From NCBI GenBank assembly GCA_913063835.1, contig CAJXZV010000005.1:1-48064 (forward strand): a stretch of 48,064 nt of DNA, in the 5' to 3' direction. Below the pieces are notes generated by a model that was given only the letters and a program-made list of their open reading frames with translations, searched no databases and was not told where the DNA came from. The position numbers and the translations under genes are program-made. Below, piece by piece: positions 3,872 to 31,768 of the stretch. Source of the stretch: an uncultured Eubacteriales bacterium. Lineage in GTDB: Bacteria; Bacillota; Sulfobacillia; UBA995; UBA9673. Each line of letters starts with the position of its first letter. Position 1 is the first letter of the stretch.

Positions 3872-3943
3872 CAGACAGGAGCAGGCGAGAACGTAAGACC
3901 GGAAGACAAGAACACAGACACAGTCGATCAGGGGGGGATGTGC

Positions 3944-5134: not shown

Positions 5135-5205
5135 GCCTGACAGCGGAATCCCCGCGCCCGGCGCATATCAATCAGTGTCCGGACCCGCCGGGTGGAGGGG
5201 TGAGC

Positions 5206-5775: not shown

Positions 5776-5831
5776 AGAAGCAAAGTCCGGCCACACTGCT
5801 GTTGCGGGGCGGGCGGGAGTTTCACCCGGAG

Positions 5832-5859
5832 AGGCGCCTTCCCCGAGGGGTAGCCGCCT
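5832..5859 (+). promoter_or_regulatory. hairpin covering the ribosome binding site of the GGDEF gene
   Basis: AGGCG (5832-5836) can pair with CGCCT (5855-5859) and CCCC (5841-5844) with GGGG (5847-5850). The GGGG is the Shine-Dalgarno core and CGCCT directly precedes the ATG at 5860. A fold of this kind would limit translation. Whether it is regulated, or only a result of high GC, cannot be told here. Confidence 0.35.
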
Positions 5860-7578: not shown

Positions 7579-7580
7579 CC

Positions 7581-9779
7581 ATGTCCGTCATCCTGGAAGG
7601 CACCCTCGAGCGGGTGACGTACTACAACGAGGCGAACGGCTACATGGTCGGCAGGCTCAGGCTCGCGCCCCGGGGGGGTCGGGCCGCCCTGGTCACCTTT
7701 GTCGGCCACCTCCCCCCGCTCAAGCCGGGTGAGAGTCTCCGGCTCGAGGGGGAGTGGGTCGACCACCCGGAGTACGGCCGGCAGTTCAAGGTCTCCTCCC
7801 ACCAGGTCCTGGTCCCGCACACGCTCGACGGGATCGAGAAGTACCTCGCCTCAGGCCTTATCAAAGGGGTCGGCCCGGCGACGGCCAGGAGGCTGGTCAA
7901 GCGCTTCGGGAAGGACACCCTCCGCGTCCTCGAAGAGGAACCGCACCGGCTGACCGAGGTCGACGGCATCGGCCCGCACAGGGCCAGGGCCATCGCCGAG
8001 GCCTTCGCCCGGCAGAAGGACGTCAAGGAGGTCATGCTTTTCCTTCAGTCCGTCGGCATCAGCCCCTCCCTGGCCGTCCGCATCCACCGCCACTACGGGA
8101 AGGACGCCGTCGCCGCCTTGAGGGAGAACCCCTACCGTCTGGCCGACGATGTCTTCGGCATCGGCTTCCGCACGGCCGACCGTATCGCCCTGCAGATGGG
8201 GGTTCCCGCGACCTCTCCCAACCGGCTCAGAGCCGGACTCCGCTACGCCCTCCGGGAGATGGCTCAGGACGGCCACGTGTTCGCGCCGAGGGAGCGGCTT
8301 GAGCGCGCGGTGGCCGGCACGCTTGACGTGGACGTCGACCTGGTCGCCGCGGAGACCGACAGGCTGGCTGAGGAAGGTCCCCTCCGGGTGGAGCGCTTCG
8401 AGGAAGGTGAGGCCGTCTATCTCGCCCCCCTTCACCGGGCCGAGTGTTCCGTGGCCGCAAGACTGCGGGACCTGCTCGACACCGGACGGGGAGAGTGCCC
8501 TCCGAGTCCGGAGGAGGTGTCGGCCGCGGCCGCCGAGGCGGGCATCGAGCTCTCGCCCGAGCAGAGGGACGCCGTGAGCGAGGCGCTCTGCCGGGGGGTC
8601 CTCATCATCACCGGCGGGCCCGGCACAGGCAAGACGACCATCATCAACAGCCTCCTTCGGCTCTGCCGGGCGAGGGGTCTCGACGTCATCCTGACCGCCC
8701 CCACGGGGCGCGCCGCCAGGAGGATGACGGAGGCCACGGGCCACGAGGCCCGGACCATCCACCGGACCCTGGAGGTCGGCTTCTCGCCGACCGGCGGCCT
8801 CGAGTTCCAGCGCAACGAGGACAACCCCCTCGAAGCCGACCTCGTGGTCGTCGACGAGGCCTCGATGGTCGACCTTGTGCTGATGCACCACCTTCTGAGG
8901 GCCGTCCGGCCTCCCACGAGGCTGGTCCTCGTCGGCGACGTGGACCAGCTCCCCGCGGTCGGGCCGGGGGCTGTGCTGCGCGACCTCATCGGCTCGGGGG
9001 TCCTGCCCGTGGTCAGGCTCACCCGCATCTTCCGGCAGGCCGGCGAGAGCCTCATCGTCCTCAACGCCCATCGCATCAACCGCGGCGAGATGCCCGTGCT
9101 GAACGAGAAGGACCGGGACTTCTTCTTCATCGAGCAGTCCGACCCGGCGGAGATCCTGGAGACGGTGGTCTCCCTGTGCTCCAGGCGCCTTCCTCAGCGT
9201 CTCGTCGAGATGGGGATGTCGCCCGACCCTCTGGCCGACATCCAGGTCATCACCCCTATGCGCCGGACGCTCATCGGGGTCGACAACCTGAACCTGGAAC
9301 TGCAAAAGGTCCTGAACCCGCCCCGCTGGGGGAAGGCCGAGATCTCCGTGGGAGGTAGAATCCTCAGGACCGGCGACAAGGTGATGCAGATACGGAACAA
9401 CTACACCAAGGAGGTCTCCAACGGCGACATCGGCATCATCCGGGCCGTGGACCGTGAGACAGGCCAGGTCGCCGTGGCCTTTCCCGGGGAGCTCGGGCCC
9501 CGGGACGTGATCTACGAGGGCGAGGAGCTGGACGAACTCGTCCTGTCTTACGCCACCACCGTCCACAAGAGCCAGGGGAGCGAGTACCCCGTCGTCGTCA
9601 TGCCCGTTTCGACCCAGCACTACGTGATGCTCCAGCGGCACCTTCTCTACACGGCGGTCACGAGGGCCAAGAAACTGGTCGTGCTGGTGGGGACCAAGAA
9701 GGCCCTCGCCATCGCGGTCAGGAACAACCGGGTCGAGGCGAGGTTCTCGCGCCTCGCCCAGCGCCTCAGAAGCCCGTGA
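7581..9779 (+). CDS. recD2: RecD2-type DNA helicase
   Basis: RecD2 is a 5'-3' superfamily 1B helicase found outside RecBCD and involved in replication and repair. The 732-residue protein starts in the family manner (LEGTLERVTYYNEANGY), has helix-hairpin-helix-like segments (GIGPHRARAIAEAF and the preceding copy), Walker A GGPGTGKT (about 345-352), Walker B VVDEASMVD, VGDVDQLP and the late motif TVHKSQGSEY. Candidate starts are ATG 7575, overlapping the previous stop as ATGA, and ATG 7581. The latter is preferred because GGGGCAGG sits 7 bases upstream. comFC follows with a GTGA overlap. In B. subtilis another helicase gene, comFA, occupies the position before comFC. Confidence 0.95.
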   Translation: MSVILEGTLERVTYYNEANGYMVGRLRLAPRGGRAALVTFVGHLPPLKPGESLRLEGEWVDHPEYGRQFKVSSHQVLVPHTLDGIEKYLASGLIKGVGPATARRLVKRFGKDTLRVLEEEPHRLTEVDGIGPHRARAIAEAFARQKDVKEVMLFLQSVGISPSLAVRIHRHYGKDAVAALRENPYRLADDVFGIGFRTADRIALQMGVPATSPNRLRAGLRYALREMAQDGHVFAPRERLERAVAGTLDVDVDLVAAETDRLAEEGPLRVERFEEGEAVYLAPLHRAECSVAARLRDLLDTGRGECPPSPEEVSAAAAEAGIELSPEQRDAVSEALCRGVLIITGGPGTGKTTIINSLLRLCRARGLDVILTAPTGRAARRMTEATGHEARTIHRTLEVGFSPTGGLEFQRNEDNPLEADLVVVDEASMVDLVLMHHLLRAVRPPTRLVLVGDVDQLPAVGPGAVLRDLIGSGVLPVVRLTRIFRQAGESLIVLNAHRINRGEMPVLNEKDRDFFFIEQSDPAEILETVVSLCSRRLPQRLVEMGMSPDPLADIQVITPMRRTLIGVDNLNLELQKVLNPPRWGKAEISVGGRILRTGDKVMQIRNNYTKEVSNGDIGIIRAVDRETGQVAVAFPGELGPRDVIYEGEELDELVLSYATTVHKSQGSEYPVVVMPVSTQHYVMLQRHLLYTAVTRAKKLVVLVGTKKALAIAVRNNRVEARFSRLAQRLRSP

Positions 9780-10498
9780 GGTCCGGACGTCTGGGGCGTC
9801 TCGGCCGGGCTGTCGTCGACTTCTTCTTCCCGGAAGAGGTCTGTGCCGTCTGCGCGGGACCTCTGCCGCCGCCGTCGGTCTGGGAGCCCGAGGCGTGTCC
9901 GGACTGTCTCGACGACATCTTCCGCCGCCTGGAGGCCGCCCCGGCCCCGGTCCTCTCGAGCCCTTCAGCCGTCCACCTGGACGGTGTGGTGACGGCCGGG
10001 GTGTACGAGGGAGCCCTCCGCCGGGCCGTCCTGAGACTCAAGGACGCACCCGACCGTCGCCTGGCGGGGTTCCTGGCCCGTCTGATGGCCGAACAGTTGG
10101 GTCGGGTCTGGCGGCCGGCGGGCCGGCCGACGGTGGTTCCCGTGCCCCTGCACCCGTCACGCCGCGTCCAGAGAGGTTTCAACCAGGCGGAGCTCCTGGC
10201 CGGGGAACTGGTCCGCCTCGCCGGCTTCCCGGCACAGGTCACGGCCTGCGAGCGCGTCCGGGACACCCCCCAACAGAGTGGCCTTGACCGGTGGGCCAGG
10301 TCGATGAGCCTCATCGGAGCCTTCCGGGTCCGCGAGACCGCCTGGGTGACCGGACGGACGGTCCTCGTCGTGGACGATGTGGTCACCACCGGAGCGACGG
10401 CCGGGGAGCTGGCCCGGGTCTTGAAGGCCGCCGGGGCCCGGGAGGTCTGGTGTGCGGCCGCGGCCGGGGTGCACCCGTCTCACACTTCCGAAAGTTGA
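9776..10498 (+). CDS. comFC: ComFC-family phosphoribosyltransferase-like competence protein
   Basis: The 240-residue protein has an N-terminal Cys4 zinc-finger (VCAVC and CPDC, residues about 21-44) and a C-terminal phosphoribosyltransferase domain with the PRPP motif VLVVDDVVTTGAT (about residues 197-209). Family members assist DNA uptake in natural transformation; their reaction is not firmly established. The GTG start overlaps the recD2 stop as GTGA, so translation is coupled. Its place before the cold-shock gene and hpf follows the comF-hpf-secA order of B. subtilis. No ComFA or ComFB is seen beside it. Confidence 0.9.
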   Translation: MRSGRLGRLGRAVVDFFFPEEVCAVCAGPLPPPSVWEPEACPDCLDDIFRRLEAAPAPVLSSPSAVHLDGVVTAGVYEGALRRAVLRLKDAPDRRLAGFLARLMAEQLGRVWRPAGRPTVVPVPLHPSRRVQRGFNQAELLAGELVRLAGFPAQVTACERVRDTPQQSGLDRWARSMSLIGAFRVRETAWVTGRTVLVVDDVVTTGATAGELARVLKAAGAREVWCAAAAGVHPSHTSES

Positions 10499-10523
10499 CA
10501 ACCGCAGGGGCGGGTGTTATAGT
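10495..10523 (+). promoter_or_regulatory. strong sigma-A-type promoter of the cold-shock gene
   Basis: A perfect TTGACA (10495-10500) and TATAGT (10518-10523, 5 of 6 matches) are separated by 17 bases. The -35 overlaps the comFC stop region. Transcription would begin near 10530 and give a leader of about 50 bases before the GTG at 10579. Confidence 0.85.
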
Positions 10524-10578
10524 GGGGAGGATGTCGGCGCACGCTGCCGACCAGTAACCTCTAGGAGGAATGGATAAA

Positions 10579-10794
10579 GTGCAAGGTAGGGTCAAGTGGT
10601 TCAACCCCGAGAAGGGGTACGGCTTCATCGAGAGGGAGGACGGCGGCGGCGACGTCTTCGTTCACTTCTCGGCCATCCAGATGGACGGCTTCAAGACCCT
10701 CAACGAGGGTGAGCAGGTGGAGTTCGAGATTGTTGAAGGTGCCCGCGGTCCGCAGGCGGCGAACGTCGTCCGGCTCGGCACCTCCACTTTCTGA
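10579..10794 (+). CDS. csp: CspA-family cold-shock protein
   Basis: The 71-residue single-domain nucleic-acid chaperone binds single-stranded RNA and DNA. RNP1 (KGYGFIE) and RNP2 (VFVHFS) are intact and the start MQGRVKWFN is the family norm. This start is the GTG at 10579, 10 bases after AGGAGG (10563-10568). The in-frame ATG at 10570 is only one base from AGGAGG and is unlikely. The gene is probably monocistronic, with a strong promoter before it and an intrinsic terminator after it. Confidence 0.95.
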
Positions 10795-10809
10795 GACCTA
10801 CCGCCAACG

Positions 10810-10839
10810 ACCCCCGGCGTCGTCCGGCGCCGGGGGTTT
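10810..10839 (+). terminator. intrinsic terminator after the cold-shock gene
   Basis: CCCCCGGCG (10811-10819) and CGCCGGGGG (10828-10836) form a perfect 9-bp stem with an 8-base loop, followed by TTTCTCATTT. It separates the cold-shock gene from hpf. Confidence 0.85.
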
Positions 10840-10870
10840 CTCATTTGTGCCTCCCGCCGCGGGCGCCAGC

Positions 10871-10899
10871 ACAGGATTTGGCACCCGACAGCGGAATAC
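10871..10899 (+). promoter_or_regulatory. sigma-H-type promoter of hpf
   Basis: ACAGGATTT (10871-10879) and GCGGAATAC (10891-10899) match the sigma-H consensus RnAGGAwWW and RnnGAATww at every fixed position with the preferred 11-base gap. Transcription would start near 10905, about 65 bases before the hpf start. In B. subtilis hpf (yvyD) is also transcribed by sigma-H. This is a sequence match, not a mapped start. Confidence 0.75.
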
Positions 10900-10969
10900 T
10901 ACTTCTTGTGGACGCGTGTGACGCGGACGCGGCTCGAACCGCTCACAGTCCGCGGAGGGAGTGAGCCGA

Positions 10970-11494
10970 GTGAAGATCGATCTGACGGCGAAGAACCTCG
11001 AGGTGAGCGATGACCTGCGGCGGCACATAGAGAAGAAGCTCGCCAAGATAGAGAAGTACTTCGAGAAAGGCGTTCCGGCGCAGGTGGTGCTGAAGGGGGA
11101 GAAGGACCGTCAGATCGTCGAGATAACCCTGCCGTTCAACGGGATGTTCGTCCGGGGCGAGGAGGCCACGTCAGACATCTACGCCTCGGTCAACCTGGCC
11201 GTCGAGAAGATAGAGCGGCAGATAGTGAAGTACCGGACAAGGTTCCAGCGGCGGAAGCGGGAAGCGCGCCAGACGGCCAGGGCCGTGCCTTCCCCGGAAC
11301 AGGTCGAGGATGACGAGCCGCGTATCGTCAGGGTCAAGCGGTTCAGCATGAAGCCCATGCTGGCCGAAGAGGCGGTGCTCCAGATGAACCTTCTGGGGCA
11401 TGACTTCTACGTCTTCATCAGCGCCGACACCGAGCAGGTCGCCGTGGTCTACCGGCGCAGGGACGGCAACTACGGCCTCATCGAGCCGGAGTAG
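10970..11494 (+). CDS. hpf: long-form ribosome hibernation promoting factor
   Basis: HPF binds the 30S decoding centre and, in its long form, pairs 70S ribosomes into inactive 100S dimers in stationary phase. The 174-residue protein has the N-terminal S30AE domain (about 1-100) and the C-terminal dimerisation domain (about 118-174) with RVKRFSMKPM, EEAVLQMNLLGHDFYVF and VVYRRxDGNYGLIEP. The GTG at 10970 has GGAGGG 10 bases upstream; the in-frame GTG at 10961 is one base from that site. The sigma-H-type promoter ahead fits entry into stationary phase. secA lies a few genes downstream, as in Bacillus. Confidence 0.96.
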   Translation: MKIDLTAKNLEVSDDLRRHIEKKLAKIEKYFEKGVPAQVVLKGEKDRQIVEITLPFNGMFVRGEEATSDIYASVNLAVEKIERQIVKYRTRFQRRKREARQTARAVPSPEQVEDDEPRIVRVKRFSMKPMLAEEAVLQMNLLGHDFYVFISADTEQVAVVYRRRDGNYGLIEPE

Positions 11495-11511
11495 CCTCCG
11501 GGGAGCGGCTC

Positions 11512-12750
11512 ATGCCGGCGAGGACAGGTGTTGTCGTCTTCGAGGGAGGTCACCGCAACCTCACGGGGGCCGGAGCTCTCTTCGCCCGGGTCCGGCGCTG
11601 GACCACCCTCGACACCCTCGAGAAGTTCATGGCCCGGCCTGAGGTCGATGTGGTCATCCTGGCCACCGACTCCACTTCCCTGGCGGCTGAAGCGAGGAAG
11701 GCCGGGGCGGAGGTCACGCTAACGGGTCCCGACTTCCACTTCGGCCGGGTCCTCTCAGACCTTGTGAAGGACCACCGCCTCGAACGGGTGGCCTTCCTGG
11801 GGGGCGGCTCCGTCCCGCTCCTCCGTTCGGAGGAGCTGTCCTCCCTCTTCGAGCTCGCCACCCCGGGCGAACGGGTCCTCGTGTCCAACAACGTCCAGTC
11901 ACCGGACATCCTGGCCGTGGGGACGGTGCGGGACCTGGACCTTCTGGCTCGGGCCGCGACGGACAACGGGGCCCTCTTCGCCCTCTGTGACGCCGGGTAC
12001 GAGCGGCGTCTCCTGCCGGACACCTCGACGACGGGTTTCGACCTCGACACGCCGGCGGACATCCTTTTCCTGGCCTATGAGGCCAGGCGGCGGGCGGCGT
12101 TCGGCGAGGGGCCGCGGCCGGGGAGCCGGGGGGGACGTCCGGCGGGGTCCCCGCCGAGCCGCGAAGCGGCTCGGCCTCCCACCCCGGCCCCTGTTCCGTT
12201 GGGGCCACGCACGGCGGCCGGGCTGGCCGGCCTGGACCTCGACCTTTCCGTTCTCGAGCGGGCGGTCGAGGTGCTGGCCGGAGACTACCTGACCGTGACG
12301 CTCATCGGCCGCGTTTCGGGCGGGACCATGAACCACCTCAACGCAAACCTTCACGTCCGCCTGCGGGTCTTCTCCGAGGAGCGCGGGATGAAGGCCCTCG
12401 GCCTCATCGACCGTGGCGAGGTGAAGAGCCTCATCGGCGCCGTCGTTCAGGACATGGGCCTTGACTATCTGGTGAGGCGGCTCCAGGAGATGTCGGACGC
12501 CGTCTTCTGGGACACCCGGGTCGTGATGGCCCACCTGGGACGCTGGCCGGAAGAAGACGACCGGTTCGAGGCCGACCTGGGCCGGTGGGATGAGGTGAAA
12601 GACCCCGAACTGCGGCGTCTCACCCGCATGGTCAGGGAGACCCGCATACCTGTCGTCGTCGGGGGACACTCGGTGGTCTCCGGCGGGCTCCGCCTCCTGG
12701 TGGACGGACTGCTCGAGGAGGGGCGGGTGCCGCCGGGCGACAGGCCTTGA
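11512..12750 (+). CDS. putative nucleotidyltransferase-fold protein with extra C-terminal domain
   Basis: Not recognised as a named protein. Residues 1-190 look like a GT-A/NTP-transferase fold: VDVVILATDS, FHFGRVLSDLV, VAFLGGGSVPLL and GFDLDTPADI, the last resembling the end motif of MobA- and CofC-like enzymes. The usual LAGGxSxRMG nucleotide loop is absent; VVFEGGHRNLTGAG may replace it. A Pro/Arg-rich linker (about 200-235) joins a second, mostly helical domain (about 240-410) ending in IPVVVGGHSVVSGGLR. It starts 17 bases after hpf with GGGGAG upstream, so it is probably co-transcribed with hpf. Its biochemical role is unknown. Confidence 0.5.
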   Translation: MPARTGVVVFEGGHRNLTGAGALFARVRRWTTLDTLEKFMARPEVDVVILATDSTSLAAEARKAGAEVTLTGPDFHFGRVLSDLVKDHRLERVAFLGGGSVPLLRSEELSSLFELATPGERVLVSNNVQSPDILAVGTVRDLDLLARAATDNGALFALCDAGYERRLLPDTSTTGFDLDTPADILFLAYEARRRAAFGEGPRPGSRGGRPAGSPPSREAARPPTPAPVPLGPRTAAGLAGLDLDLSVLERAVEVLAGDYLTVTLIGRVSGGTMNHLNANLHVRLRVFSEERGMKALGLIDRGEVKSLIGAVVQDMGLDYLVRRLQEMSDAVFWDTRVVMAHLGRWPEEDDRFEADLGRWDEVKDPELRRLTRMVRETRIPVVVGGHSVVSGGLRLLVDGLLEEGRVPPGDRP

Positions 12751-20671: not shown

Positions 20672-23600
20672 TTGACCATCCACCGGTCCCTCCGGTCGGT
20701 CCCGGCGCTGGTGCTGGCCCTGGCCCTTGCCGCGTCGGTAGGGAGCCTCCTCGCCACCGGCGGCCTCCGCGCGGACCCGTCACCCGTCGAGGTCGCCGTG
20801 TCGTGGCGGACCGTCGAGGGGCAGAGCCGGGAACGGGGTCTTGACCCGGAAGAGACGCTGAAGACGCTGGCGGCGGCCGGGGTCACGGCCCTGGTCGTTG
20901 AAGAGCGGACCGTCGAGGACCTCGCCGCCACCGGGGACATAGTCGTTCTCAAGGGGGCCGACGTCGGGCGGGCCGAGGCCCGCTTCCCCGGGCTGGCCGC
21001 CTGGCGGGCCCGGAGCCCCGGTGTCCCCGTGACCGTTTTCGTCACGGGCGACCCGTCCCTGGCCGGATGGCTCCACGACCGGACCCTGGTCCGCTTCGGG
21101 GCGGACCGCGTCACCCTGTTCCGCGCCACGGCCGGCGCGGGCAGGGGCGCGGACGACGGTGCGAAGGCCGACGCCGACACCGCGGTCGACGTCTTTGGCG
21201 TGGCCGTCCGCGGTTCGCTTCCCTCCTACGCCCGCATAGGCCTTTACCCACCCGACCTCGAGGCGGCCGGGCGGGCGGGGTTGAGGATAGTCGTCCAGCT
21301 CCAGAACCCGCGCGAGGAACCCGGCCTCTCCCTGGAGGCGGCGCTCCGGCCGGCCACGGCCTCTCCCGCCCGGTCGGACCTTGTGGCCGTCATGTTCGAC
21401 GGCGGCGAGGTCTGGGGCTACGGCCTTCCCGGGGGGCCGGCCGAAGCCGGGAGGCAGGCGGCGGGCCTCGGCCTCCCGCTGGCGGTCGACCCCGCGCACC
21501 TGCCGGCCGGCCTTTACCCGTACGCCGAGGCGGCCGGGTGGCGGGTCATCAAGCTCCAGACCGTCTGGAGCACGGGGCGTCCGGAGCTCTTCGCCGAGGG
21601 CGTGGTCGAGAGAGGGTCGCCTCTTCTCGTCGTCATGCCCGGCCTGTGGCACCGTTTCCGGGACGACCCGGCCTGGCCGGACGGCCTCGCCCGGGCCCTT
21701 ACCGCCTTCAGGGCCGGGCTCGCCGAGCACGGGCTCGACTTCGGCCCGCCGCGTCCGGTCTCCGCGGCGCGGCCGCCGCTCGTCCTGAGTGTCGCGGTCG
21801 GCTGGGGCGTCCTCCTCTGGTCCTTCGTGACATGGTCAGGCCTCACCGACGGACTCATCCCCGAGGCTCTCCTTTCCGGCGGGCCCCGAGGCTCGCCGGA
21901 GCGGTTCCGCCGCCGCCTCCTGTCGGCGGGAGGCGCCGTCCTCGGGGCGGCGGCCGCCGCTCTTCCCTGGCTTCTCTCCTCTGCCTTGCGCCTCGTCACC
22001 CTGCAGGGGTTGATCCTGCTCGGCTCGGTGTCGTTCCCGGTGGGGGCCCTTCATCAGGCCCTGAGGACCTGGACCGACCCGCGGTCGGCCCAGGTCGCCC
22101 GAACCGGGCCGGGCGAGGGCACGGGGCCAGGCGAAGGCCGCGGACCGGCCGCCGGGTCCAAGCTGGCGGCCGCGGCCTGGGTCACGGTGAGGGCGGCCCT
22201 GACGGTCCTGGCCGGAGGTGTCCTCGTGCGGGCTCTCGGGTGTGGGCCCGAGTTCCTCGTGAGGGCCGTCCAGATGCCGGGAACGAAGGCGAGTCTCCTC
22301 GCCGGCCCGGTCCTGGCCCTCCTTATCCTCTGGCTCCTGCTGGAGGGGCGCCGAGGCCCCCGCGCCCCGGGGCCGGCCGTGCGTCTGGCGGCCTTCCTCG
22401 AGCGCCCGCTGACCGTCGGAGCGGTGGCCTCGGTGCTGACGGTGGGCTTCGTCGTCTTCATCTACCTCAGCCGCAGTGGGAACTTCCCCCTGATACCCGT
22501 CAGCGACCTCGAGTTCGAGTGGAGGAGCCGGCTGGCGGACCTCTTCTCGGTCAGGCCGAGGACGAAGGAGTTCCTCCTCGGCTATCCCGCCCTTCTTCTC
22601 GGCTCCTGGCTCGGGCCGCCGGCCCTGAGGCGGGGGTGGGGGTTCGTCCTGGCCGCCCTCGGGGGTGTCGCGGCCTCCTCGGTCCTCAACACCTTCGTTC
22701 ACCTGCACATCCCGGCCGCGGTCTCCGCGGGGCGGACCCTTGTCGGCCTCGGCCTAGGCCTGGCTGTCGGTCTTCTGGCGGTCCTTCTGCTGGAGGGTCT
22801 CGGAAGGCTCCGGCCGCCGGCCGTCTCCGGGAGGAAGGTCGTCACGTGTGTCTCCCTCCTCCTGACACTGGCGGGGCTGGGGTTCACGGCCGCCAACTTG
22901 CCGGCGGCCGTCCTGCCGCACGTCGGCGCCGCCCCGGTCGAGCTCACCCTCGACCTCGGCGACCTGTGGCGCGCGGTCGGCGGGGACGGGCACGCCGTCG
23001 GCGCCGCTCTCGAGGAGCTCGGCCGGGCGGGCCTCACCTCGGTGGCCCTCGGCGAGACGACCCTGGGCGCTCTGACGGCGGGCGGCGTGCCTGAGAGACC
23101 CTGGTCCGTGACGCTGGTCGGAGGTCGTGACCTCCAGGCCCGGGTCTGGCTGGGCGAGGCCGGCCCTCTGGAGCGGGCCGTGGCCCGGACGCCCGGCTTC
23201 GACGGCGCCGGGAGCGTCCTGTTCCTTCCCGCCGGGTCCCCGGCCCGGGACATCCTCGGACGGCTGGCCGCGAGCGCCGGGGACCGGTTCCGGGAGCTCG
23301 TCAGGGTGGGTTCCACCGTCGTCGTCACCACGCCTTACCCTCCGCACCTGGCCCGAGAGGTCGGTCTCGGCTTTCTCCCCTCTGAAGCCGGAGCGAGGCT
23401 GGCCCCCGCCGCGGGGAGCGGCCTCCTCGTCGTCCCCCGGCCGCGCAACCCCCATGGCGGGGACCCGGAGGTCCTGGCCGCACGCCTCGACGAACTGCGG
23501 GAGGTCCTGGACACCCTTAAGCTCGACTGGTCGACGGTGGTGTTCGAGGGACCGGAGGTCGGCGGGTATCCCGACGCCGTGGGCGGCGTCCTGACCGTCC

Positions 23601-24661
23601 TCCGGGAGAGGGGGCTCGTTCCAGGGTTCATCCTCGACCCTCACCGCCCCGGGTACGTCGGGCAGGCCGGGACGGTCGAGGCCGCCCGCAGGGCGGGGTA
23701 CCGCTTCGCGGCCGTCCTTCCGGTCGTGGCCGGCGAAGGCCCGGCCCGGGAGACCGCCGCCCGGGCGGCCGGGCGCGGGGCGAGCCTGGTCTACCTCAGA
23801 CTGCCGGAGAGGGGTGCTGTCCCGGTTGGGTTCATCGGCGGGCTGTCGGCGGCTCTGGCGGAGAAGGGTGTCCCTCCGGGTCGGGCGGCGACCGGCAGAC
23901 CGTTCCTGCTCGTCCCGGGAGGGGCGGCCGAAGGTCCCTGGCTGGAGGCGGGTCTCACCCTGGCGCTGGTCGGACTCCCCTGGGCCGGTGCGGCCCTCCT
24001 GCAGAGGGCCCTCCGGGAGCGGCGGCTGTCTTGCCGGGGCGCGGCCTCCCGGCCGGCGGGCGCGGCCTGCCTCGCGTCGGCGGCTCTGTGGCCCTTGGGC
24101 CTCTCACTCCTCGGAGGTCTGGCGGCCCGCGCCTTCCTCGGCGACGCTGAGGTCCTCCTCGGACTGCGTCCCGTCGACCTCCGACCGGTCCAGCCGTTCC
24201 TGCCGCTCGCGTCGGCGGGGGCCGCGCTGGTCACGCTGGAGCCGTGGGGGAGCGGCCCGGCGGCGGAGCCGTCGAGGTGGTGGCGCAAGGCGGTGACACC
24301 GGCGCTCGGGCTCGTGCTGGCCGTCGCGGCCGCGACCGGGTGGGCCGTCACGGCCGTCTGGGGAGGGGTCGGCGCCGCGGTCGCGGGCACGGTGGTCCTG
24401 GGCCTGTCGCTCGCGGCGGCCGGAGTCCCGGGCGAGACCTCGGTCCGGAGGGCGAGGGCGCTCGGAGGGGCGGCCGCGGAGGGGACCGTAGGGATGGCCG
24501 GCGCGGCGGCGGCTTTCGCCGGGTCCGGGTTGGCCTTCTACGTGGCCCGTCTCACCGGCACGGCGGCGCCCGCGGCGCTCGGGGCGGCGGCGGCCCTCAT
24601 GGTCGCCGGCCTGTCAGGAGTTCGGCGGCCAGCTCGTTGTTCATCCGAGCCCTCCGCCTGA
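20672..24661 (+). CDS. giant polytopic protein with two tandem DUF5693-like units
   Basis: The 1329-residue protein is about twice the usual DUF5693 length. Unit 1: a signal/anchor helix (about 13-32), an extracytoplasmic region (about 38-365), then helices (about 370-715) with the DUF5693 core RSG at 601, PRTKEFL near 629-635 and GYP at 637-639. Unit 2: another anchor helix (about 723-748), a second extracytoplasmic region (about 753-1090; LTSVALGETTLGALTAGG recalls unit 1) and C-terminal helices that lack the RSG/GYP core. The function of DUF5693 is unknown. The TTG start has GAAAGGAAAG upstream. The gene converges on csaB and the two coding ends overlap by 65 bases. A role in cell-wall polymer assembly is inferred from neighbours and from the GT26 fusion at 29159. 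Confidence 0.8.
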   Translation: MTIHRSLRSVPALVLALALAASVGSLLATGGLRADPSPVEVAVSWRTVEGQSRERGLDPEETLKTLAAAGVTALVVEERTVEDLAATGDIVVLKGADVGRAEARFPGLAAWRARSPGVPVTVFVTGDPSLAGWLHDRTLVRFGADRVTLFRATAGAGRGADDGAKADADTAVDVFGVAVRGSLPSYARIGLYPPDLEAAGRAGLRIVVQLQNPREEPGLSLEAALRPATASPARSDLVAVMFDGGEVWGYGLPGGPAEAGRQAAGLGLPLAVDPAHLPAGLYPYAEAAGWRVIKLQTVWSTGRPELFAEGVVERGSPLLVVMPGLWHRFRDDPAWPDGLARALTAFRAGLAEHGLDFGPPRPVSAARPPLVLSVAVGWGVLLWSFVTWSGLTDGLIPEALLSGGPRGSPERFRRRLLSAGGAVLGAAAAALPWLLSSALRLVTLQGLILLGSVSFPVGALHQALRTWTDPRSAQVARTGPGEGTGPGEGRGPAAGSKLAAAAWVTVRAALTVLAGGVLVRALGCGPEFLVRAVQMPGTKASLLAGPVLALLILWLLLEGRRGPRAPGPAVRLAAFLERPLTVGAVASVLTVGFVVFIYLSRSGNFPLIPVSDLEFEWRSRLADLFSVRPRTKEFLLGYPALLLGSWLGPPALRRGWGFVLAALGGVAASSVLNTFVHLHIPAAVSAGRTLVGLGLGLAVGLLAVLLLEGLGRLRPPAVSGRKVVTCVSLLLTLAGLGFTAANLPAAVLPHVGAAPVELTLDLGDLWRAVGGDGHAVGAALEELGRAGLTSVALGETTLGALTAGGVPERPWSVTLVGGRDLQARVWLGEAGPLERAVARTPGFDGAGSVLFLPAGSPARDILGRLAASAGDRFRELVRVGSTVVVTTPYPPHLAREVGLGFLPSEAGARLAPAAGSGLLVVPRPRNPHGGDPEVLAARLDELREVLDTLKLDWSTVVFEGPEVGGYPDAVGGVLTVLRERGLVPGFILDPHRPGYVGQAGTVEAARRAGYRFAAVLPVVAGEGPARETAARAAGRGASLVYLRLPERGAVPVGFIGGLSAALAEKGVPPGRAATGRPFLLVPGGAAEGPWLEAGLTLALVGLPWAGAALLQRALRERRLSCRGAASRPAGAACLASAALWPLGLSLLGGLAARAFLGDAEVLLGLRPVDLRPVQPFLPLASAGAALVTLEPWGSGPAAEPSRWWRKAVTPALGLVLAVAAATGWAVTAVWGGVGAAVAGTVVLGLSLAAAGVPGETSVRRARALGGAAAEGTVGMAGAAAAFAGSGLAFYVARLTGTAAPAALGAAAALMVAGLSGVRRPARCSSEPSA

Positions 24662-25712
24662 GTTCGGCCACGGCCTCCTTGAGGCGGGCCGCCCGGGCGT
24701 CGTAGTCGGCCTCGACATCGTTTATGGCCAGGAGGATGTCCTCTGTCTGCGCCTTCTCGACCGGTCCCACCGACACCTGGCCTGTCTGGGCGAGGAACTC
24801 GTCCACCTTCGGGTCGTAGACCAGGCCGATGCCCGGCACCCCGCCCACGGCGGCGAAGATGAGCGGATGGAGCCGCATGCTGAGGACCCACCTGAAGTGC
24901 CCGAGGAGGGCGACCGTCTCCCGTGCCGCGTAGAAGTTCCGGACGAGGTGGCTCGGGTGCTTCATCAGTCCCTGGACCCGCTGAGCCGCATCCAGGTCGA
25001 GGTCGCGGTGGACGGGGAGGAAGACCACCCCGTAGCCGAGCTTGCCGGCGATGTAGTCGGCCGCGCGGGCCACGGCCGGCCCGAGGCGGTCGGTCTGGCG
25101 CCACGGTCTGACGACGATGCCGACGAAGGGGGGGCGGTCGGCCTTCGTGAGGTCGGGGAGCCCCTCTTCCCTGCAGATGGCTGCGACACTGGCCGGAGGG
25201 GCCGGGTCGACGGCGAAGGCCGTGTCGGCCGTCTCGACGATGCGGGGACGGGTCACCCCGAGCTCGGCGAGGAACTCCCGCGAGGAGGGTCCGCGGACGG
25301 TGATAAGTGAGACCTGGTCGAGGACCCAGCGGGTGATGAGCCGGTTCAGGGGGCGGTCGATGGGGCCGATCCCGTTCGCGTAGAGCATGACCTTCTTGCC
25401 CCGGCGGACGGCGGCAAGGATGATGGCCAGGTAGTACCAGAGGGACCGGCTGCTGGTCACGTCCTGGAGGAGGCTCCCGCCGCCGCTGATGAGCATGTCG
25501 CAGGTCTGTATCTCCCGGAGGATCCTCCGCGGGTCGGTCCTCTTGACGGCCCGGATGTCGTGGCGGACGGCGGTGACCTCGGGGCGGCTTGAGAGGACGG
25601 TGATCTCCACTCCGGGCACGGCGTTCCGCAGGCCGGCGACGGCCGTCTCGAGGATGGCCTCGTCGCCCCAGTTGTCGAAGCCGTAGTATCCCGAGATGAC
25701 TACCTTGGGCAT
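24597..25712 (-). CDS. csaB: CsaB polysaccharide pyruvyltransferase
   Basis: CsaB adds a pyruvyl ketal to a secondary cell-wall polysaccharide, creating the ligand for SLH-domain S-layer proteins. The 371-residue protein has the family start GYYGFDNWGDEAILE, SGGGSLLQD, LYANGIGPID and a C-terminal part with RLHPLIFAAVGGVP and GLVYDPKV. The start at 25712 has GGAGGTGG a few bases upstream, and its first 13 bases overlap the end of the ligase gene. It is the last gene of the leftward operon. Its C terminus overlaps the end of the tandem DUF5693 gene on the opposite strand. No SLH protein is in this window. Confidence 0.92.
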   Translation of the reverse strand: MPKVVISGYYGFDNWGDEAILETAVAGLRNAVPGVEITVLSSRPEVTAVRHDIRAVKRTDPRRILREIQTCDMLISGGGSLLQDVTSSRSLWYYLAIILAAVRRGKKVMLYANGIGPIDRPLNRLITRWVLDQVSLITVRGPSSREFLAELGVTRPRIVETADTAFAVDPAPPASVAAICREEGLPDLTKADRPPFVGIVVRPWRQTDRLGPAVARAADYIAGKLGYGVVFLPVHRDLDLDAAQRVQGLMKHPSHLVRNFYAARETVALLGHFRWVLSMRLHPLIFAAVGGVPGIGLVYDPKVDEFLAQTGQVSVGPVEKAQTEDILLAINDVEADYDARAARLKEAVAELRRRARMNNELAAELLTGRRP

Positions 25713-27301
25713 GGTCCACCTCCGCTCGCCGGCACCGGGCGGCCGGGCCGGGTCTCGTTCTCCAGGGCGGCCCGGGCCGCGGTGGCGAGGCCCAGGACGA
25801 ACCATATGAGGAGGATGGGGCGCGGGAGGTAGAAGATGGGCTCGGCCAGCCCGAAGGCCAGGCTGGCCAGCACGGCGGCCGCCGCTCCGGCCAGGAGGGA
25901 ACCGGCGGGGCGGACCCTCGCCCGGCCCGACAGCCGGACGGCCCAGCCGATGGGCCGGAGGAGGACCCAGTGGACCGCGGCGAAGCCGATGACCCCCAGC
26001 TCGATGAGGGTCTGGAGATAGTGGCTGTGGGCGTGGAAGGCGAAGCGTCCTTCTATGGCGTACTGCGGGTAGATCGTCGTGAAGGCCCGCCAGCTCAGAC
26101 CCAGGCCGGAGTACCAGAAGTCCCCGACCATCCGGAGCGAGGCCTCCCAGACGCGCACGCGGTGCACGGCCGTCGGGTCGTCGAACCGGGTGAGGGTGGC
26201 GGCGCGCGAGAGGACGACGTCGGGGGCGATGACCAGGGCCGCCAGGGCGGCAAGGAGGCCGACGGCGAGGATGCGGCGGTCGCGCACCACCCCTAGGAAG
26301 AGGACGGCCACGCCGAACCCGAACCATCCCGCCCGGGACAGAGTGAGGACGAGAGCGAGGCCGGCCGTGATCACCCCGAGTCCGACGACGACCCGGACCT
26401 TCCTGCTCCCGGCCGCCCACAGGACGGCGGCCAGGAGCGGTCCGGCCAGGAGGAGGTGCAGGGCGAAGACGTTCGGGTTCCCCCAGAAGGCGAAGACGCG
26501 CGTCCCCATCTCGGGGAAGAAGCCGGCGCCGATCCAGGCCCTCTCTGCCGGTACGTGGACGGCCACCTGGTAAAGGCCATAGAGTCCGCTGAGGACGGCC
26601 GAGAGCCCGAAGGCCAGGGCGGCACGGGTGAGGTCCTCCGCCCGGCGGAGCAGGCTGGTGGTCGCCCAGTAGAGGCCGAACCCGAGGGCCCACACCGCCA
26701 GGTAGCGGAGGCTCCCGGTGGGGGCCACCGACGTGGCGGTGGCGGCCACGAGCAGACCGGCGAGAAGGGCCAGGGCCGGGTCCGACCGCTCTCGGAGTTC
26801 GCGGGTGAGGTCAGCCGCGAAGAGGCCGGGCCGCCAGGAGGCCGCCGCCAGGCGGCGGGCGGCGGTGGAGAGGACGACCGCGGCGGCCGTTGCCAGGGCG
26901 AGGATGTCGCCGGCGAGCGGCGCGACGGTCAGGAAGGCGTACAGGCCCATCTGGGGGCTTGCGGCGGCGACCGCGACGGTGAGGGCGGCGGCCAGGACGC
27001 GGGCGGCGGGTCCGCCGGAGAGGTTGAAGGCCCAGGCGTCAAGGAGGGCCAGCGAGACGAGGCCGGGGACGACAAGGCTCACCCCCCGGGCGGCGGACGC
27101 ACCGGCGGGAAGCCACACGGCTCTCGCCAGCGAGCCCACCCAGCTCTCCTCCCAGGCGGTGAGGGCCGGACGGAGAAGGCCGGACTGCGCGCTCCGGCGG
27201 ACGAAGGCCGCGGCCCGGCCGACGACGCTCCCGTCCCAGGCCGACCGAAGGACCGCCATGGGCGGCGGAGAAGTCCCGGCCGTAGCGTGCGCCGTCGTCA
27301 C
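25700..27301 (-). CDS. O-antigen-ligase (Wzy_C) type membrane protein
   Basis: The 533-residue protein has 10 or more membrane helices. The Wzy_C features are visible: TLSRAGWFGFGVAVL in the core and the large extracellular loop with FHAHSHYLQTLIELGVIGF. Family members ligate or polymerise undecaprenyl-linked glycans at the outer face of the membrane. The GTG start overlaps the DUF4330 stop as GTGA, with GAGGAGGT 6 bases upstream; its own end overlaps the csaB start by 13 bases. It probably polymerises or transfers the polymer that CsaB modifies. Confidence 0.9.
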   Translation of the reverse strand: MTTAHATAGTSPPPMAVLRSAWDGSVVGRAAAFVRRSAQSGLLRPALTAWEESWVGSLARAVWLPAGASAARGVSLVVPGLVSLALLDAWAFNLSGGPAARVLAAALTVAVAAASPQMGLYAFLTVAPLAGDILALATAAAVVLSTAARRLAAASWRPGLFAADLTRELRERSDPALALLAGLLVAATATSVAPTGSLRYLAVWALGFGLYWATTSLLRRAEDLTRAALAFGLSAVLSGLYGLYQVAVHVPAERAWIGAGFFPEMGTRVFAFWGNPNVFALHLLLAGPLLAAVLWAAGSRKVRVVVGLGVITAGLALVLTLSRAGWFGFGVAVLFLGVVRDRRILAVGLLAALAALVIAPDVVLSRAATLTRFDDPTAVHRVRVWEASLRMVGDFWYSGLGLSWRAFTTIYPQYAIEGRFAFHAHSHYLQTLIELGVIGFAAVHWVLLRPIGWAVRLSGRARVRPAGSLLAGAAAAVLASLAFGLAEPIFYLPRPILLIWFVLGLATAARAALENETRPGRPVPASGGGPCPR

Positions 27302-27792
27302 CCTCCGACCTCCTCTATCCCGACGATGGTCGCCTTGAAGCGGAAGAGGCGCCCCGAGAGCGGCAGTTCTATGCCTATCTTGGTGTCGCGCCCGCCGACG
27401 GTGATTGCGTTGGGGCCGACCACACCCTCGGCCCGGACGACGATGTAGAGGTCATAGCGGCCGGGGACCTCGGCCATGACGATCTGCCCGGCCGCGGTGG
27501 CCACAGGTTCGCGGTGGGGTTCCGCCCACTTCTCGACCACCACCCCCAGCGGGATCTGGGACTCGTAGCCGGCCACGTTCTCCCCGACCGCCACGGCGTC
27601 CACGGACGGCTGGCGGACGTCGGCGACCTCGAAGGTGAGGAGGATGGTGCGGGTCTCGGCGAGACCCTGCTCCTCGACCCTGAGAAGCCTGTGGGTCCCG
27701 GCCGCGGCCGCGACGACGACGGCGAGGACGACCAGGAGGTTGACGACGTTGAAGCGGCCCAGGAGACGGCCGTGGCTGTCAATGAGAGACAT
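27298..27792 (-). CDS. DUF4330 membrane-anchored protein
   Basis: The 164-residue protein has one N-terminal helix (about residues 16-34) after a short start (SLIDSHGRLLGRFNVVNLLV), then a beta-rich extracytoplasmic domain with GENVAGYESQIPLG and GPNAITVGGRDTKIGIELPL, which fits DUF4330. The function is unknown, but the family often lies in exopolysaccharide loci. The ATG at 27792 has GGAGGGAGCAGG upstream and its start overlaps the end of the GT4 gene by 14 bases; an upstream in-frame ATG at 27831 lacks such a site. Confidence 0.75.
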   Translation of the reverse strand: MSLIDSHGRLLGRFNVVNLLVVLAVVVAAAAGTHRLLRVEEQGLAETRTILLTFEVADVRQPSVDAVAVGENVAGYESQIPLGVVVEKWAEPHREPVATAAGQIVMAEVPGRYDLYIVVRAEGVVGPNAITVGGRDTKIGIELPLSGRLFRFKATIVGIEEVGG

Positions 27793-28924
27793 CGGTCCTG
27801 CTCCCTCCGTCCGGTCCGTCAAGGAGCTCACGGTAGACTTCGAGACACGTCTCGGCCATCACCGCCGGTGTGAAATGGCGGCGGCCGTGCTCGTAGAGGT
27901 TCTCTCCCAGCTTCTTCCGGAGCGCGGGGTCGCCGAGGAGGCGGTCCAGGCGCTCCCCGAACCCGTCGACATCTCCCGGCTCGAAGAGGAGGCCTGTCTC
28001 ACCGTCGATGATGAGCTCCGGCACCCCGCCGACGTTGGAGCTGACGGTGGCAAGGCTCCAGCGGGCACCTTCGAGCAGGGCGTAAGGCAAGGTCTCGCTG
28101 AACGACGTGAGGGTGTTGATGTCAAGGACCGAGAAGACGTCGTCGGAGTCTTCCACATGTCCGAGGAAATGGGTCCTCGAGCCGAGACCCAGCCTCAGGG
28201 CCATACGTTCCAGAGCGGCGCGGATGCGGCCCTCGCCGACGACGAGGAAGTGCGCCCTGGGGTGCCTGGACGCGACCTTCGCCGCCCCGCCGAGGAAGAC
28301 TTCGTGGCACTTGACCGGATGCAGGCGGGCCACGATGCCGACGATGACCGCGTCCGACGGCACCGGCAGGCCCAGAGCCGCAAGGGCCGCCCCCCTCGGC
28401 CGGGGCCGGGGCCGCGAGAAGTCGATGCCGTTCTTGAGCGGCCTGATGAGGGCCCGGGGGACGCCGAGCTGGATGACCGAGGGCTCCACCCCGATGCCGA
28501 CCAGGTAGCGGTCGAAGCGCCGGAGCGCCCAGGCGTTCAGCCGGGAAAAGAACAGGTTCTTCAAGAACTCGCCGGAGAAGTCCTTGCGGTAATCGCTGTG
28601 GACGGTGGTCACCAGAGGCCGGCCGAGACCGGGGCGGGCCAGCACGGCGAGGACGTTCGCCCGCGGGCCGTGGCAGTGGACGATGTCGAAACCGCGTCCC
28701 AGGACGAACCGGCGCAGGCGGCCGACGGCGCCGAGGTCGTACCGGGTCACCTGGCCGAGGCAGTGGACATCGAGGCCTATCCTCCGCGCCTCTTCCAGGA
28801 AAGGACCGTCGGTGAAACATCCCAACGTCACGTCGATGCGCCGCGAGAGCTCCAGAAGAAGGGTGAAGATGTGGGTCTTCGCCCCGCCGTAATCCGTTCC
28901 GCTCGCCAGGTGGAGAATCTTCAA
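27779..28924 (-). CDS. GT4-family glycosyltransferase
   Basis: The 381-residue GT-B enzyme has the N-terminal loop GTDYGGAKTH, DIVHCHGPRANVLA, LKNGID, a second Rossmann domain from about residue 190 (IVGIVARLHPVKCHE) and the EX7E motif (SETLPYALLE). It is retaining and cytoplasmic, acting on the inner face of the membrane with an unknown nucleotide sugar. A TTG start at 28924 reads MKILHLASG; AGGCGG lies about 11 bases upstream. It is the first gene of the leftward operon GT4, DUF4330, ligase, csaB, all with overlapping ends. Confidence 0.93.
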   Translation of the reverse strand: MKILHLASGTDYGGAKTHIFTLLLELSRRIDVTLGCFTDGPFLEEARRIGLDVHCLGQVTRYDLGAVGRLRRFVLGRGFDIVHCHGPRANVLAVLARPGLGRPLVTTVHSDYRKDFSGEFLKNLFFSRLNAWALRRFDRYLVGIGVEPSVIQLGVPRALIRPLKNGIDFSRPRPRPRGAALAALGLPVPSDAVIVGIVARLHPVKCHEVFLGGAAKVASRHPRAHFLVVGEGRIRAALERMALRLGLGSRTHFLGHVEDSDDVFSVLDINTLTSFSETLPYALLEGARWSLATVSSNVGGVPELIIDGETGLLFEPGDVDGFGERLDRLLGDPALRKKLGENLYEHGRRHFTPAVMAETCLEVYRELLDGPDGGSRTDVSH

Positions 28925-29158: not shown

Positions 29159-31768
29159 GTGCGCAAGGTCTTATGTATCCTCCTCGCCGTGGCGACCGCG
29201 GCCTCGGTCGCGGCGCTCCTGCCGCGTGCGGCCTACGACCGGGCTCAGGGCGACAGGGTCGAACTCGTCGCCGGACTCGGGCGGATCGTCGGCCTCGCTG
29301 ACAGGCAGGGTCTTCCGGCCCGGGCCGTTCTCGAGGACTTCCGTCGGGCCGGCCTCACCTCCGTCTCCGCCACGCCGGAGGAGCTGGCGCGGCTGGAGGC
29401 TGAAAGGGGGCCGCTCCTCGCGGGCGGCGGGGTTCTCATATGGTCACCCGTTCTCCACGGGTCGACAGGGCAGTCCGCCGCGGACGTCGAGGCTGTCCTG
29501 CGGGAGGTCGCGGTGATGCGGGACGCCGGGGTCCCGACCGGTACGGTCCTCCTGGACGGGGACGCCGTGCCGGGTTTCCCGGCTTCACTCGAGGTCACCG
29601 CCGCCGGGCTCCGGGACCTGGGGCTCCCGCTCGGTCTTGTCGAGGACCCCAGCCAGTTGGGTTATGTCCCCTTGGCGGGGACGGCCGACCTGGCGGCGCT
29701 TCTCGACTACTCGCTCCTGCGCGTCTACCGGCCGCCCGCCTCCCTCCTCGAATCTCCGCCGCGGCTGGCGGAGAAGGTCGCGCGTTCGGTCAAGGAGCGC
29801 AGTCTCCGTGTGGTCCGGCTCGACCTCTTCGCCTTCTACAGCGAGCCCCCGGCCGCGTGGATGACCGGGCCGGCCGGTGAGGAGGGGCTCCTGGCGGCCA
29901 ATCTGCATTATGTCAAACAGGTCAGGGAGAGGCTGGAGGCGGCCGGCTTCGAGGTCGGACCGGCGGCCGGGCCGCCGCATCCGTTCCGGGCCTCTCCGGT
30001 CCTGCTCGCGGCCATCGCCCTCGGCCCCTGGGTGGTGAGCGCGGCCCTTTTAGACCTCGCGGTCCAGGGAAGGCTCGGGCGGCGGAGGGGCGGCCGGCTG
30101 GCGGTCCTGCTGGCAGGGTCCGCGGCGGCCGGGTGCGTCCTCCTTGCGGCGACCCGCCTTCCCGGGGCGTTGCCTCTGGTGCAGAAGCTCGTGGCCCTCT
30201 GGGCCGCTCTTGTCTACCCGGCCCTGGCCGGGGTCTGGCTCGTGAGGCGCTGGGGGGCCTTGGGGGAAGGGGCGGCACGCCCCACCTGGTCTGCGGTCCT
30301 CGGTGAGGTCCTGGCCGCTGCCGTGCTGGCGCTTGTCGGAGGGGCCGCCGTGGCCGGGGCCATGTCCGACGTGAGGTTCGCGGTGGAGATGGAGTACTTC
30401 CGCGGGGTGAAGCTGTCTTATGTCGTCCCGCCGGCCGTGGTCCTGCTGGCCTCCCTGTGGTTCGCGGCTCCGCCCCACCGCCGGACGCTGTCCGGGGTCC
30501 GGGAGGCGGTCCGGAGGTTCGGCCGGATGCTGACCGGTGAGGTCCGGCTCAGGCACGTGGCCGCCGGACTCGTCCTCGCGCTCGTGCTCGTCGTCTACGT
30601 CGGGCGTTCGGGAGACCAGCCGTGGCTCCCTGTGAGTTCCGTCGAGGTCGCGGCGAGGACGTGGCTCGACCGCACCTTCCACGCCCAACCGCGGCTGAAG
30701 GAGTTCCTGGTCGGCTATCCGTCTGTCATGCTCGGCTCGTACCTCGCCCGGACCCGACGTCGGAGGTGGCTCCCCCTCTGGGGTGCGGCGGGGACGGTCG
30801 GCCTCGTCAGCGTGGTCAACTCGTTCGAGCACGTCAGGACGCCGGTGGCCCTGACGCTGACACGCACGGTGAACGGGGCCCTGCTGGGCCTTGTTGTCGG
30901 GTCGGTCGCCGTTCTGGCCGCCGCGGCCCTCGTCAGGGGCCGGTCTGCGGAAGGTCCGGGGCGGGGTGCGGCCGCGGCGGGCGGGTCCGTCCCGCCGTCG
31001 GGCGGGACGGTCGACATCCTGGGGGTCGGCGTGAGCCGCCTGACCTTCGAGGAGGCCGTCGCCCGGGCCGCCAGGCTGGTGCGTGAGGCCGGCTCGTCCG
31101 GCGAGGCCCGGCTCATCTTCACCCCCAATCCGGAGATGCTCTACCGGGCGGCACGGGACCCCGGGTTCGCGGCCGAGCTCGGCTCGGCCGACATGCTGGT
31201 CGCTGACGGGGTGGGTGTCGTCTGGGCCTCGCGCGTCCTCGGTGCAGCGCTCCCCGAGCGCGTGTCAGGCGTGGACCTCCTGACCCGCCTCATGGAGAAG
31301 GGCGGCGAGGTGCACGGCGACCGCCCCTTGCGTATCTTCCTCCTCGGGTCTCACCCCGGGGTCGCCGAGGAGGCGGCGGCCAGGATGACGGAACGCTACG
31401 ACGGGGTCTCGGTGGTGGGCTGGCACCACGGGTACTTCTCGCCGGAGGAGGAGGCCGGGGTCCTTTCCGCGGTGCGCCGGGCCCGTCCCGACCTCCTTGT
31501 CGTCGGTCTGGGGAGTCCCAGGCAGGAGAAGTGGCTCGTCCGGCACAGGGCGGCCCTCGGGGGGATGGCGGCCGTGGGAGTCGGGGGGGCGCTGGACGTG
31601 CTCTCGGGAAGGACCCGGCGCGCCCCGGCCTGGCTGCGCCGCCTCGGGCTCGAATGGGTCTACCGGATACTGAGCCAGCCGCGCGCCCGGCTCGGACGGG
31701 TCCCGGCCCTGGCGGGGTTCGTCGTGGAGGTCTTCCGCGCCCGCCTCGCGCGGGGCCGAGCCCTTTGA
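29159..31768 (+). CDS. DUF5693 domain fused to WecG/TagA (GT26) glycosyltransferase
   Basis: The 869-residue protein has a signal/anchor helix (about 4-22), an extracytoplasmic region (about 30-270), a polytopic part (about 285-600) with the DUF5693 core RSG at 483-485, PRLKEFL and GYP at 519-521, then a complete GT26 domain (about 616-869). The GT26 part has FTPNPEMLYRA, ADGVGVVWA (D683, matching the catalytic Asp of TagA) and LGSPRQEKW (784-792). TagA/WecG enzymes add ManNAc-type sugars to undecaprenyl-PP-GlcNAc on the inner membrane face. The fusion ties DUF5693 physically to lipid-linked glycan synthesis. The GTG start has GGAGGG 10 bases upstream. No frameshift or stop separates the two parts. 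Confidence 0.9.
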   Translation: MRKVLCILLAVATAASVAALLPRAAYDRAQGDRVELVAGLGRIVGLADRQGLPARAVLEDFRRAGLTSVSATPEELARLEAERGPLLAGGGVLIWSPVLHGSTGQSAADVEAVLREVAVMRDAGVPTGTVLLDGDAVPGFPASLEVTAAGLRDLGLPLGLVEDPSQLGYVPLAGTADLAALLDYSLLRVYRPPASLLESPPRLAEKVARSVKERSLRVVRLDLFAFYSEPPAAWMTGPAGEEGLLAANLHYVKQVRERLEAAGFEVGPAAGPPHPFRASPVLLAAIALGPWVVSAALLDLAVQGRLGRRRGGRLAVLLAGSAAAGCVLLAATRLPGALPLVQKLVALWAALVYPALAGVWLVRRWGALGEGAARPTWSAVLGEVLAAAVLALVGGAAVAGAMSDVRFAVEMEYFRGVKLSYVVPPAVVLLASLWFAAPPHRRTLSGVREAVRRFGRMLTGEVRLRHVAAGLVLALVLVVYVGRSGDQPWLPVSSVEVAARTWLDRTFHAQPRLKEFLVGYPSVMLGSYLARTRRRRWLPLWGAAGTVGLVSVVNSFEHVRTPVALTLTRTVNGALLGLVVGSVAVLAAAALVRGRSAEGPGRGAAAAGGSVPPSGGTVDILGVGVSRLTFEEAVARAARLVREAGSSGEARLIFTPNPEMLYRAARDPGFAAELGSADMLVADGVGVVWASRVLGAALPERVSGVDLLTRLMEKGGEVHGDRPLRIFLLGSHPGVAEEAAARMTERYDGVSVVGWHHGYFSPEEEAGVLSAVRRARPDLLVVGLGSPRQEKWLVRHRAALGGMAAVGVGGALDVLSGRTRRAPAWLRRLGLEWVYRILSQPRARLGRVPALAGFVVEVFRARLARGRAL

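Follow-up and report, generated by a model that had tools for sequence, protein, structure and literature searches.

A single reading frame in the DNA of an uncultured Eubacteriales bacterium joins DUF5693, a widespread membrane protein family without an assigned function, to a TagA-type GT26 glycosyltransferase. Together with comparisons across bacteria, analysis of the whole 48,064-nucleotide stretch (hereafter the window) identifies DUF5693 as a core gene of secondary cell wall polymer (SCWP) loci, and its membership in the SCWP pathway is near certain. We cautiously favour the interpretation that DUF5693 polymerises lipid-linked ManNAc-GlcNAc repeats, as a Wzy-like polymerase built on a different fold; ligation or flipping by DUF5693 is less likely than polymerisation. 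Our literature search found no paper naming DUF5693, nor biochemical or genetic data on it. The features of the window are listed in Table 1.

Table 1. Features of the window and of the fusion protein, with coordinates counted from the first nucleotide of the window.
Feature	Coordinates	Strand	Details
Second DUF5693 protein	20672..24661	+	1329 aa; one full unit with conserved motifs and a second, partial, barrel-only match
csaB, polysaccharide pyruvyl transferase	24597..25679	-	PF04230, 143.7 bits
Wzy_C (O-antigen polymerase/ligase clan) membrane protein	25700..27301	-	PF04932, 67.2 bits
DUF4330 protein	27298..27831	-	PF14221, 92.2 bits
GT4-type glycosyltransferase	27779..28924	-	PF00534/PF13692
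DUF5693-TagA fusion gene	29159..31768	+	869 aa; GTG start; one uninterrupted frame
Predicted N-terminal transmembrane anchor	29162..29245	+	Residues 2-29; AlphaFold2 model
Predicted extracytoplasmic TIM-barrel-like domain	29255..29821	+	Residues about 33-221; shortened compared with relatives; AlphaFold2 and Foldseek
Predicted nine-helix membrane core	29996..30946	+	Residues about 280-596; AlphaFold2 and topology count
Conserved segment, predicted outer face	30602..30721	+	R483, G485, E496, R500, R512, K514, E515, G519 and P521, invariant in 76 aligned DUF5693 proteins
NSFEHVRTP motif, predicted outer face	30818..30844	+	Residues 554-562, with H558 and P562; conservation alignment
Flexible linker between the two domains	30953..30988	+	Residues 599-610; sole segment with pLDDT < 50
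TagA-type GT26 domain	30989..31765	+	Pfam, TIGR, Foldseek and active-site residue alignment

The fusion protein matches DUF5693 (Pfam PF18949) with 340.9 bits against a gathering score of 29, in two stretches of which the best covers residues 103-590, and Glyco_tran_WecG (PF03808) with 199.7 bits against a cut-off of 27.4, at residues 677-843. The Pfam scan detected nothing besides DUF5693 and GT26, and thus no MOP-superfamily profile. This agrees with the initial annotation, which had described DUF5693 and a complete GT26 enzyme in one frame, and the motifs that it named lie where it placed them: GRSG starts at residue 482, KEFLVGYP lies inside QPRLKEFLVGYP (from 510), the catalytic aspartate is D683 and SPRQEKW starts at 786. 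FRGVK starts at 414 and NSFEHVRTP at 554. The initial annotation had also raised the possibility that a sequencing error joined two neighbouring genes, and the source genome is indeed in 181 contigs. However, the full-length fusion, at 57% identity and with the same gene order, is also present in two separately assembled genera from the window's family, G001 and G002 (named loci L033 and L032, respectively). This refutes an assembly or sequencing artefact, which can be excluded in practice. Fusions of DUF5693 and TagA look rare across bacteria.

The closest solved structure to the C-terminal domain is TagA of Thermoanaerobacter italicus (Foldseek; PDB 7MPK/7N41/5WB4), and the match to 7MPK has an E-value of 2e-12, a TM-score of 0.95 by target length and 35% identity. 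The catalytic and appendage residues reported for this enzyme (T37, N39, D65, R83, Q167, E168, R214, R221, and R224; PMC6493773) are kept in all nine cases, as T655, N657, D683, R701, Q789, E790, R836, R844, and R847 of the fusion in our alignment. The GT26 half exceeds the cut-off of TIGR00696 (148.8 bits vs 69) and misses that of the NCBIfam TarA equivalog (162 bits vs 350). Judged by these profiles it is a member of the TagA/TarA superfamily, not a strict TarA equivalog, and because it misses the latter cut-off we can only infer its exact sugar. Known TagA is a free, membrane-associated protein, whereas the GT26 domain here is covalently attached to DUF5693 behind the last transmembrane helix.

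AlphaFold2 models of the fusion (mean pLDDT 91.5) and of a separate DUF5693 protein from Veillonella magna (pLDDT 90.7) agree on an N-terminal anchor, a TIM-barrel-like domain and, after it, a bundle-forming set of nine transmembrane helices. If the N-terminus is inside, the predicted topology places the barrel outside and the C-terminus inside, where TagA must be. The fused DUF5693 lacks about 95 extracytoplasmic residues present in most relatives; it is a shortened member of the family, still far above the Pfam cut-off, and it keeps all of the conserved family residues of the membrane core (G416, K418, R483, G485, E496, R500, R512, K514, E515, G519, P521, H558, and R569). In an alignment of 76 DUF5693 proteins, of which about 39 are independent at 60% identity, the predicted inner loops of the membrane half contain no residue conserved at 90% or more. 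The predicted topology assigns the conserved FRGVK, RSG, E-R, RPRxKEFLxGxP and H...P elements to outer loops or to helices, where most sit close to the outer end. This suggests that DUF5693 has its working site on the outer face. Foldseek matched the barrel part to TIM barrels only, and its search of the DUF5693 part against the PDB returned only non-significant matches, again mostly TIM barrels, with no solved fold for the membrane part and no MurJ-like structure among the matches listed.

The initial annotation tied DUF5693, through the fusion, to lipid-linked polymer synthesis and suggested a genome survey as a check; the survey bore this out by an association with both csaB and GT26. DUF5693 adjoins csaB in 20/20 loci of a phylum survey, which were picked from listed high-scoring matches and are not a strictly random sample. 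Across 300 genomes, a CsaB match was found in 177 of the 181 DUF5693 carriers and in 83 of the 119 non-carriers (Fisher 2e-12), and SLH domains in 175/181 and 84/119, respectively (Fisher 1e-10), neither test being corrected for phylogeny. Among the control genomes that carry DUF5693 are those of Thermus composti, Deinobacterium chartae, and Thermotoga maritima, each of which has SLH and CsaB matches as well. We also collected 80 named loci from Negativicutes, Halanaerobium, Sporomusa, Thermoanaerobacterium, Atribacterota, Margulisbacteria, and others. Nearly all of them have DUF5693 directly before csaB, often overlapping it; counting the window, csaB is present in 73 of 81 loci, and many of the remaining loci end at a contig edge. 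The main genetic partner of DUF5693 is csaB; only some lineages have GT26 adjoining the cluster.

CsaB is not an obligatory partner: genus g96, which gave no CsaB match and in which SLH matches were absent from two of the three genomes sampled, carries DUF5693 within an operon of teichoic-acid-like type (TagO, TagB/F-like, DUF5693, and TagA). Locus L112 (G103:C1:2294000-2312000, positions 2715-12609, minus strand), from a genus without a CsaB match, is a teichoic-acid-like operon of TagO, TagB/F-like, DUF5693, TagA, nucleotidyltransferase and Fe-ADH genes. The g96 operon suggests that the common denominator of DUF5693 loci is the lipid-linked ManNAc-GlcNAc unit and not its pyruvylation. In Veillonella (L041, L058, L063, and others), secA, DUF5693, and csaB are kept together. 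OmpM of Negativicutes has been reported to bind polyaminated peptidoglycan and not a pyruvylated SCWP (PMC10628300), and the retention of these three genes suggests that Negativicutes may still make a pyruvylated polymer. A protein of 280-290 aa with 4-6 transmembrane helices recurs after TagA, at DUF5693 and Wzy_C loci alike (L154, L155, L128, L161, L162, L172, and L176); the one copy scanned, from L161, belongs to the YitT family (PF02588/PF10035).

The SCWP locus of Paenibacillus alvei connects these observations to an experimentally studied pathway. The published csaB cloning primer (PMC6030368) matches G608 exactly, all seven of the published SCWP-locus primers tested match L125 with 0 mismatches, and their spacings in L125 (1072, 1065, and 2037 bp) are identical to the RT-PCR product sizes in the literature. 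The gene that overlaps csaB upstream in L125 is DUF5693 (660 bits). We therefore identify DUF5693 as P. alvei orf1 (PAV_RS07430), which has been counted among the "two ORFs of unknown function" in this locus (PMC6801904). In the P. alvei locus (orf1-csaB-tagA-tagO), DUF5693 directly precedes csaB and tagA as a separate gene, whereas the window has a single gene for DUF5693 and TagA, with an inverted csaB upstream of it. P. alvei CsaB acts on the lipid-linked disaccharide (PMC6030368, PMC6801904), and a one-pot reaction of MnaA, TagA and CsaB has been published. Mutants deleted for tagO, tagA or csaB were not obtainable in P. alvei (PMC6801904). The steps that follow are said to "remain elusive" (PMC6801904), and SCWP polymerisation and ligation have been called "remaining challenging open questions" (PMC6030368).

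The window, G001, and G002 share a gene order of DUF5693 (1.3 k aa), followed on the opposite strand by csaB, Wzy_C, DUF4330, and GT4, and then by DUF5693-TagA, transketolase, and ftsEX on the strand of the first gene; a long DUF5693 protein like the 1329-aa one of the window occurs in L032 and L033. Both the sister order and G003, a genome from the window's own family, have the unfused arrangement DUF5693-DUF5693-csaB-TagA. The three fused genera lack this inner csaB and have another csaB, inverted upstream within a GT4-DUF4330-Wzy_C-csaB block that resembles the block of DUF5693-less lineages. This arrangement is suggestive of a fusion that probably arose through loss of the csaB between DUF5693 and TagA. 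In our CsaB tree, the window csaB groups with Wzy_C-type csaB genes (support 88/91), while an AU test against a single clade joining it with the sister order was borderline (p 0.058); the tree is thus only suggestive of an acquired csaB block. TagA (GT26) and CsaB are themselves fused in several lineages (L110:3130-4809, L131:7094-8932, L140, and L177), another sign of physical coupling between these steps.

The step that DUF5693 carries out can be approached through the genes that take its place. Among 52 loci picked from listed matches, 19 of the 32 without DUF5693 have a Wzy_C gene no more than four genes away from csaB, as against one of the 20 with DUF5693 (Fisher 8e-5). Counted by family, the difference is 10/18 vs 1/14 (p 0.0075). 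Several gene identities in this comparison come from small HMMs built here, with representatives checked against Pfam. The remaining 13 of the 32 DUF5693-less loci have no Wzy_C within four genes of csaB, and the window lineage has both DUF5693 and Wzy_C by csaB, which shows that neither gene strictly excludes the other. Both arrangements occur within genus g174: G275 carries an operon of csaB, MurJ, DUF5693, TagO, and LCP, and G207 carries Wzy_C-DUF4330-GT4-csaB with a MurJ gene nearby. DUF5693 resembles the Wzy_C proteins, including the WpaA/WpaB proteins, in its proximity to csaB, place in the pathway, multi-spanning form and expected outer-face function. It is proposed only to work like members of the Wzy/WaaL clan, to which it has no detectable sequence relation. 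We rejected DUF5693 as a distant Wzy_C protein, since profile comparison gave no signal (hhalign probability 1.8%). To our knowledge, Wzy/WaaL proteins, unlike DUF5693, have no large extracytoplasmic TIM barrel.

Several functions remain to be weighed for such a protein. DUF5693 is rather unlikely to be a WaaL/WpaA-like ligase that transfers completed SCWP chains, or individual repeats, to a wall acceptor or to a lipid-linked linkage unit. The conserved residues on the predicted outer face would suit this function, as would the alternation with Wzy_C, a clan of ligases as well as polymerases, and WpaA/WpaB have been proposed as both polymerase and ligase (PMC6030368). However, genes of the LCP family, the known wall ligases, lie by csaB and DUF5693 in two genomes of family f54, and pyruvylation takes place on the lipid-linked repeat, so that polymerisation comes afterwards (PMC6030368, PMC6801904) and a polymerase would still be required. 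A flippase or translocation partner that takes the lipid-linked disaccharide outward, close to the initial suggestion that DUF5693 moves the glycan, appears improbable. DUF5693 is a polytopic membrane protein present in nearly every locus, and many loci have no other recognised flippase gene adjoining it. The large extracytoplasmic barrel and the outward position of the conserved residues in the predicted topology argue against this function, as do the MurJ-family flippase genes that adjoin csaB or DUF5693 in checked representatives of several families, with or without DUF5693, and the finding that Wzy_C is its usual alternative.

Still less probable is a non-catalytic scaffold or regulator that groups TagA, CsaB, and export enzymes, with the fusion merely tethering TagA to the membrane. 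Fusions between pathway partners recur (GT26-CsaB) and TagA activity requires membrane contact (PMC6493773), but strictly conserved charged residues that cluster on one face fit an active or binding site better. With flipping accounted for by the MurJ family and wall attachment by LCP proteins, chain building is the step left for DUF5693, which is the polymerase reading that we favour. One point against this reading is that in the teichoic-acid-like operon of g96, which has no csaB, polymerisation might be cytoplasmic.

Under the polymerase reading, the fusion gene would encode a two-ended machine of the SCWP pathway. Its cytoplasmic TagA end, with conserved catalytic residues, would add ManNAc to GlcNAc-PP-lipid, after which CsaB would place a pyruvate ketal on the ManNAc of the lipid-linked disaccharide, as shown for P. 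alvei. A MurJ/Wzx-type flippase would turn the disaccharide outward, and DUF5693, with a putative outer-face active site under the TIM-barrel cap, would join the repeats into a polymer that LCP enzymes would attach to peptidoglycan and that SLH domains would bind there. The fusion would thereby bring the pathway's first committed enzyme next to its final lipid-linked step. This order reverses the one first proposed, in which GT26 extends a glycan presented by DUF5693: TagA would make the disaccharide in the cytoplasm and DUF5693 would probably use it later, on the outer face.

More tentatively, DUF5693 could be the founding family of a group of polymerases for lipid-linked glycans that combine a membrane fold not seen before with an extracytoplasmic TIM barrel. 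It could thus be the hitherto missing SCWP polymerase in bacteria that anchor SLH proteins, in monoderms (P. alvei) and possibly also in diderm lineages with SLH-type outer-membrane tethers. If this is true, the window shows a DUF5693 polymerase hard-wired to the first committed enzyme of its pathway, and a widespread family without a function gains a concrete role in the polymerisation step of SCWP synthesis. The identity of DUF5693 with orf1, next to csaB in P. alvei, for which TagA and CsaB have been reconstituted, allows the question to be tested directly. A polymer strung together outside the membrane in this way would give the cell wall an anchor for surface proteins or for the outer membrane.
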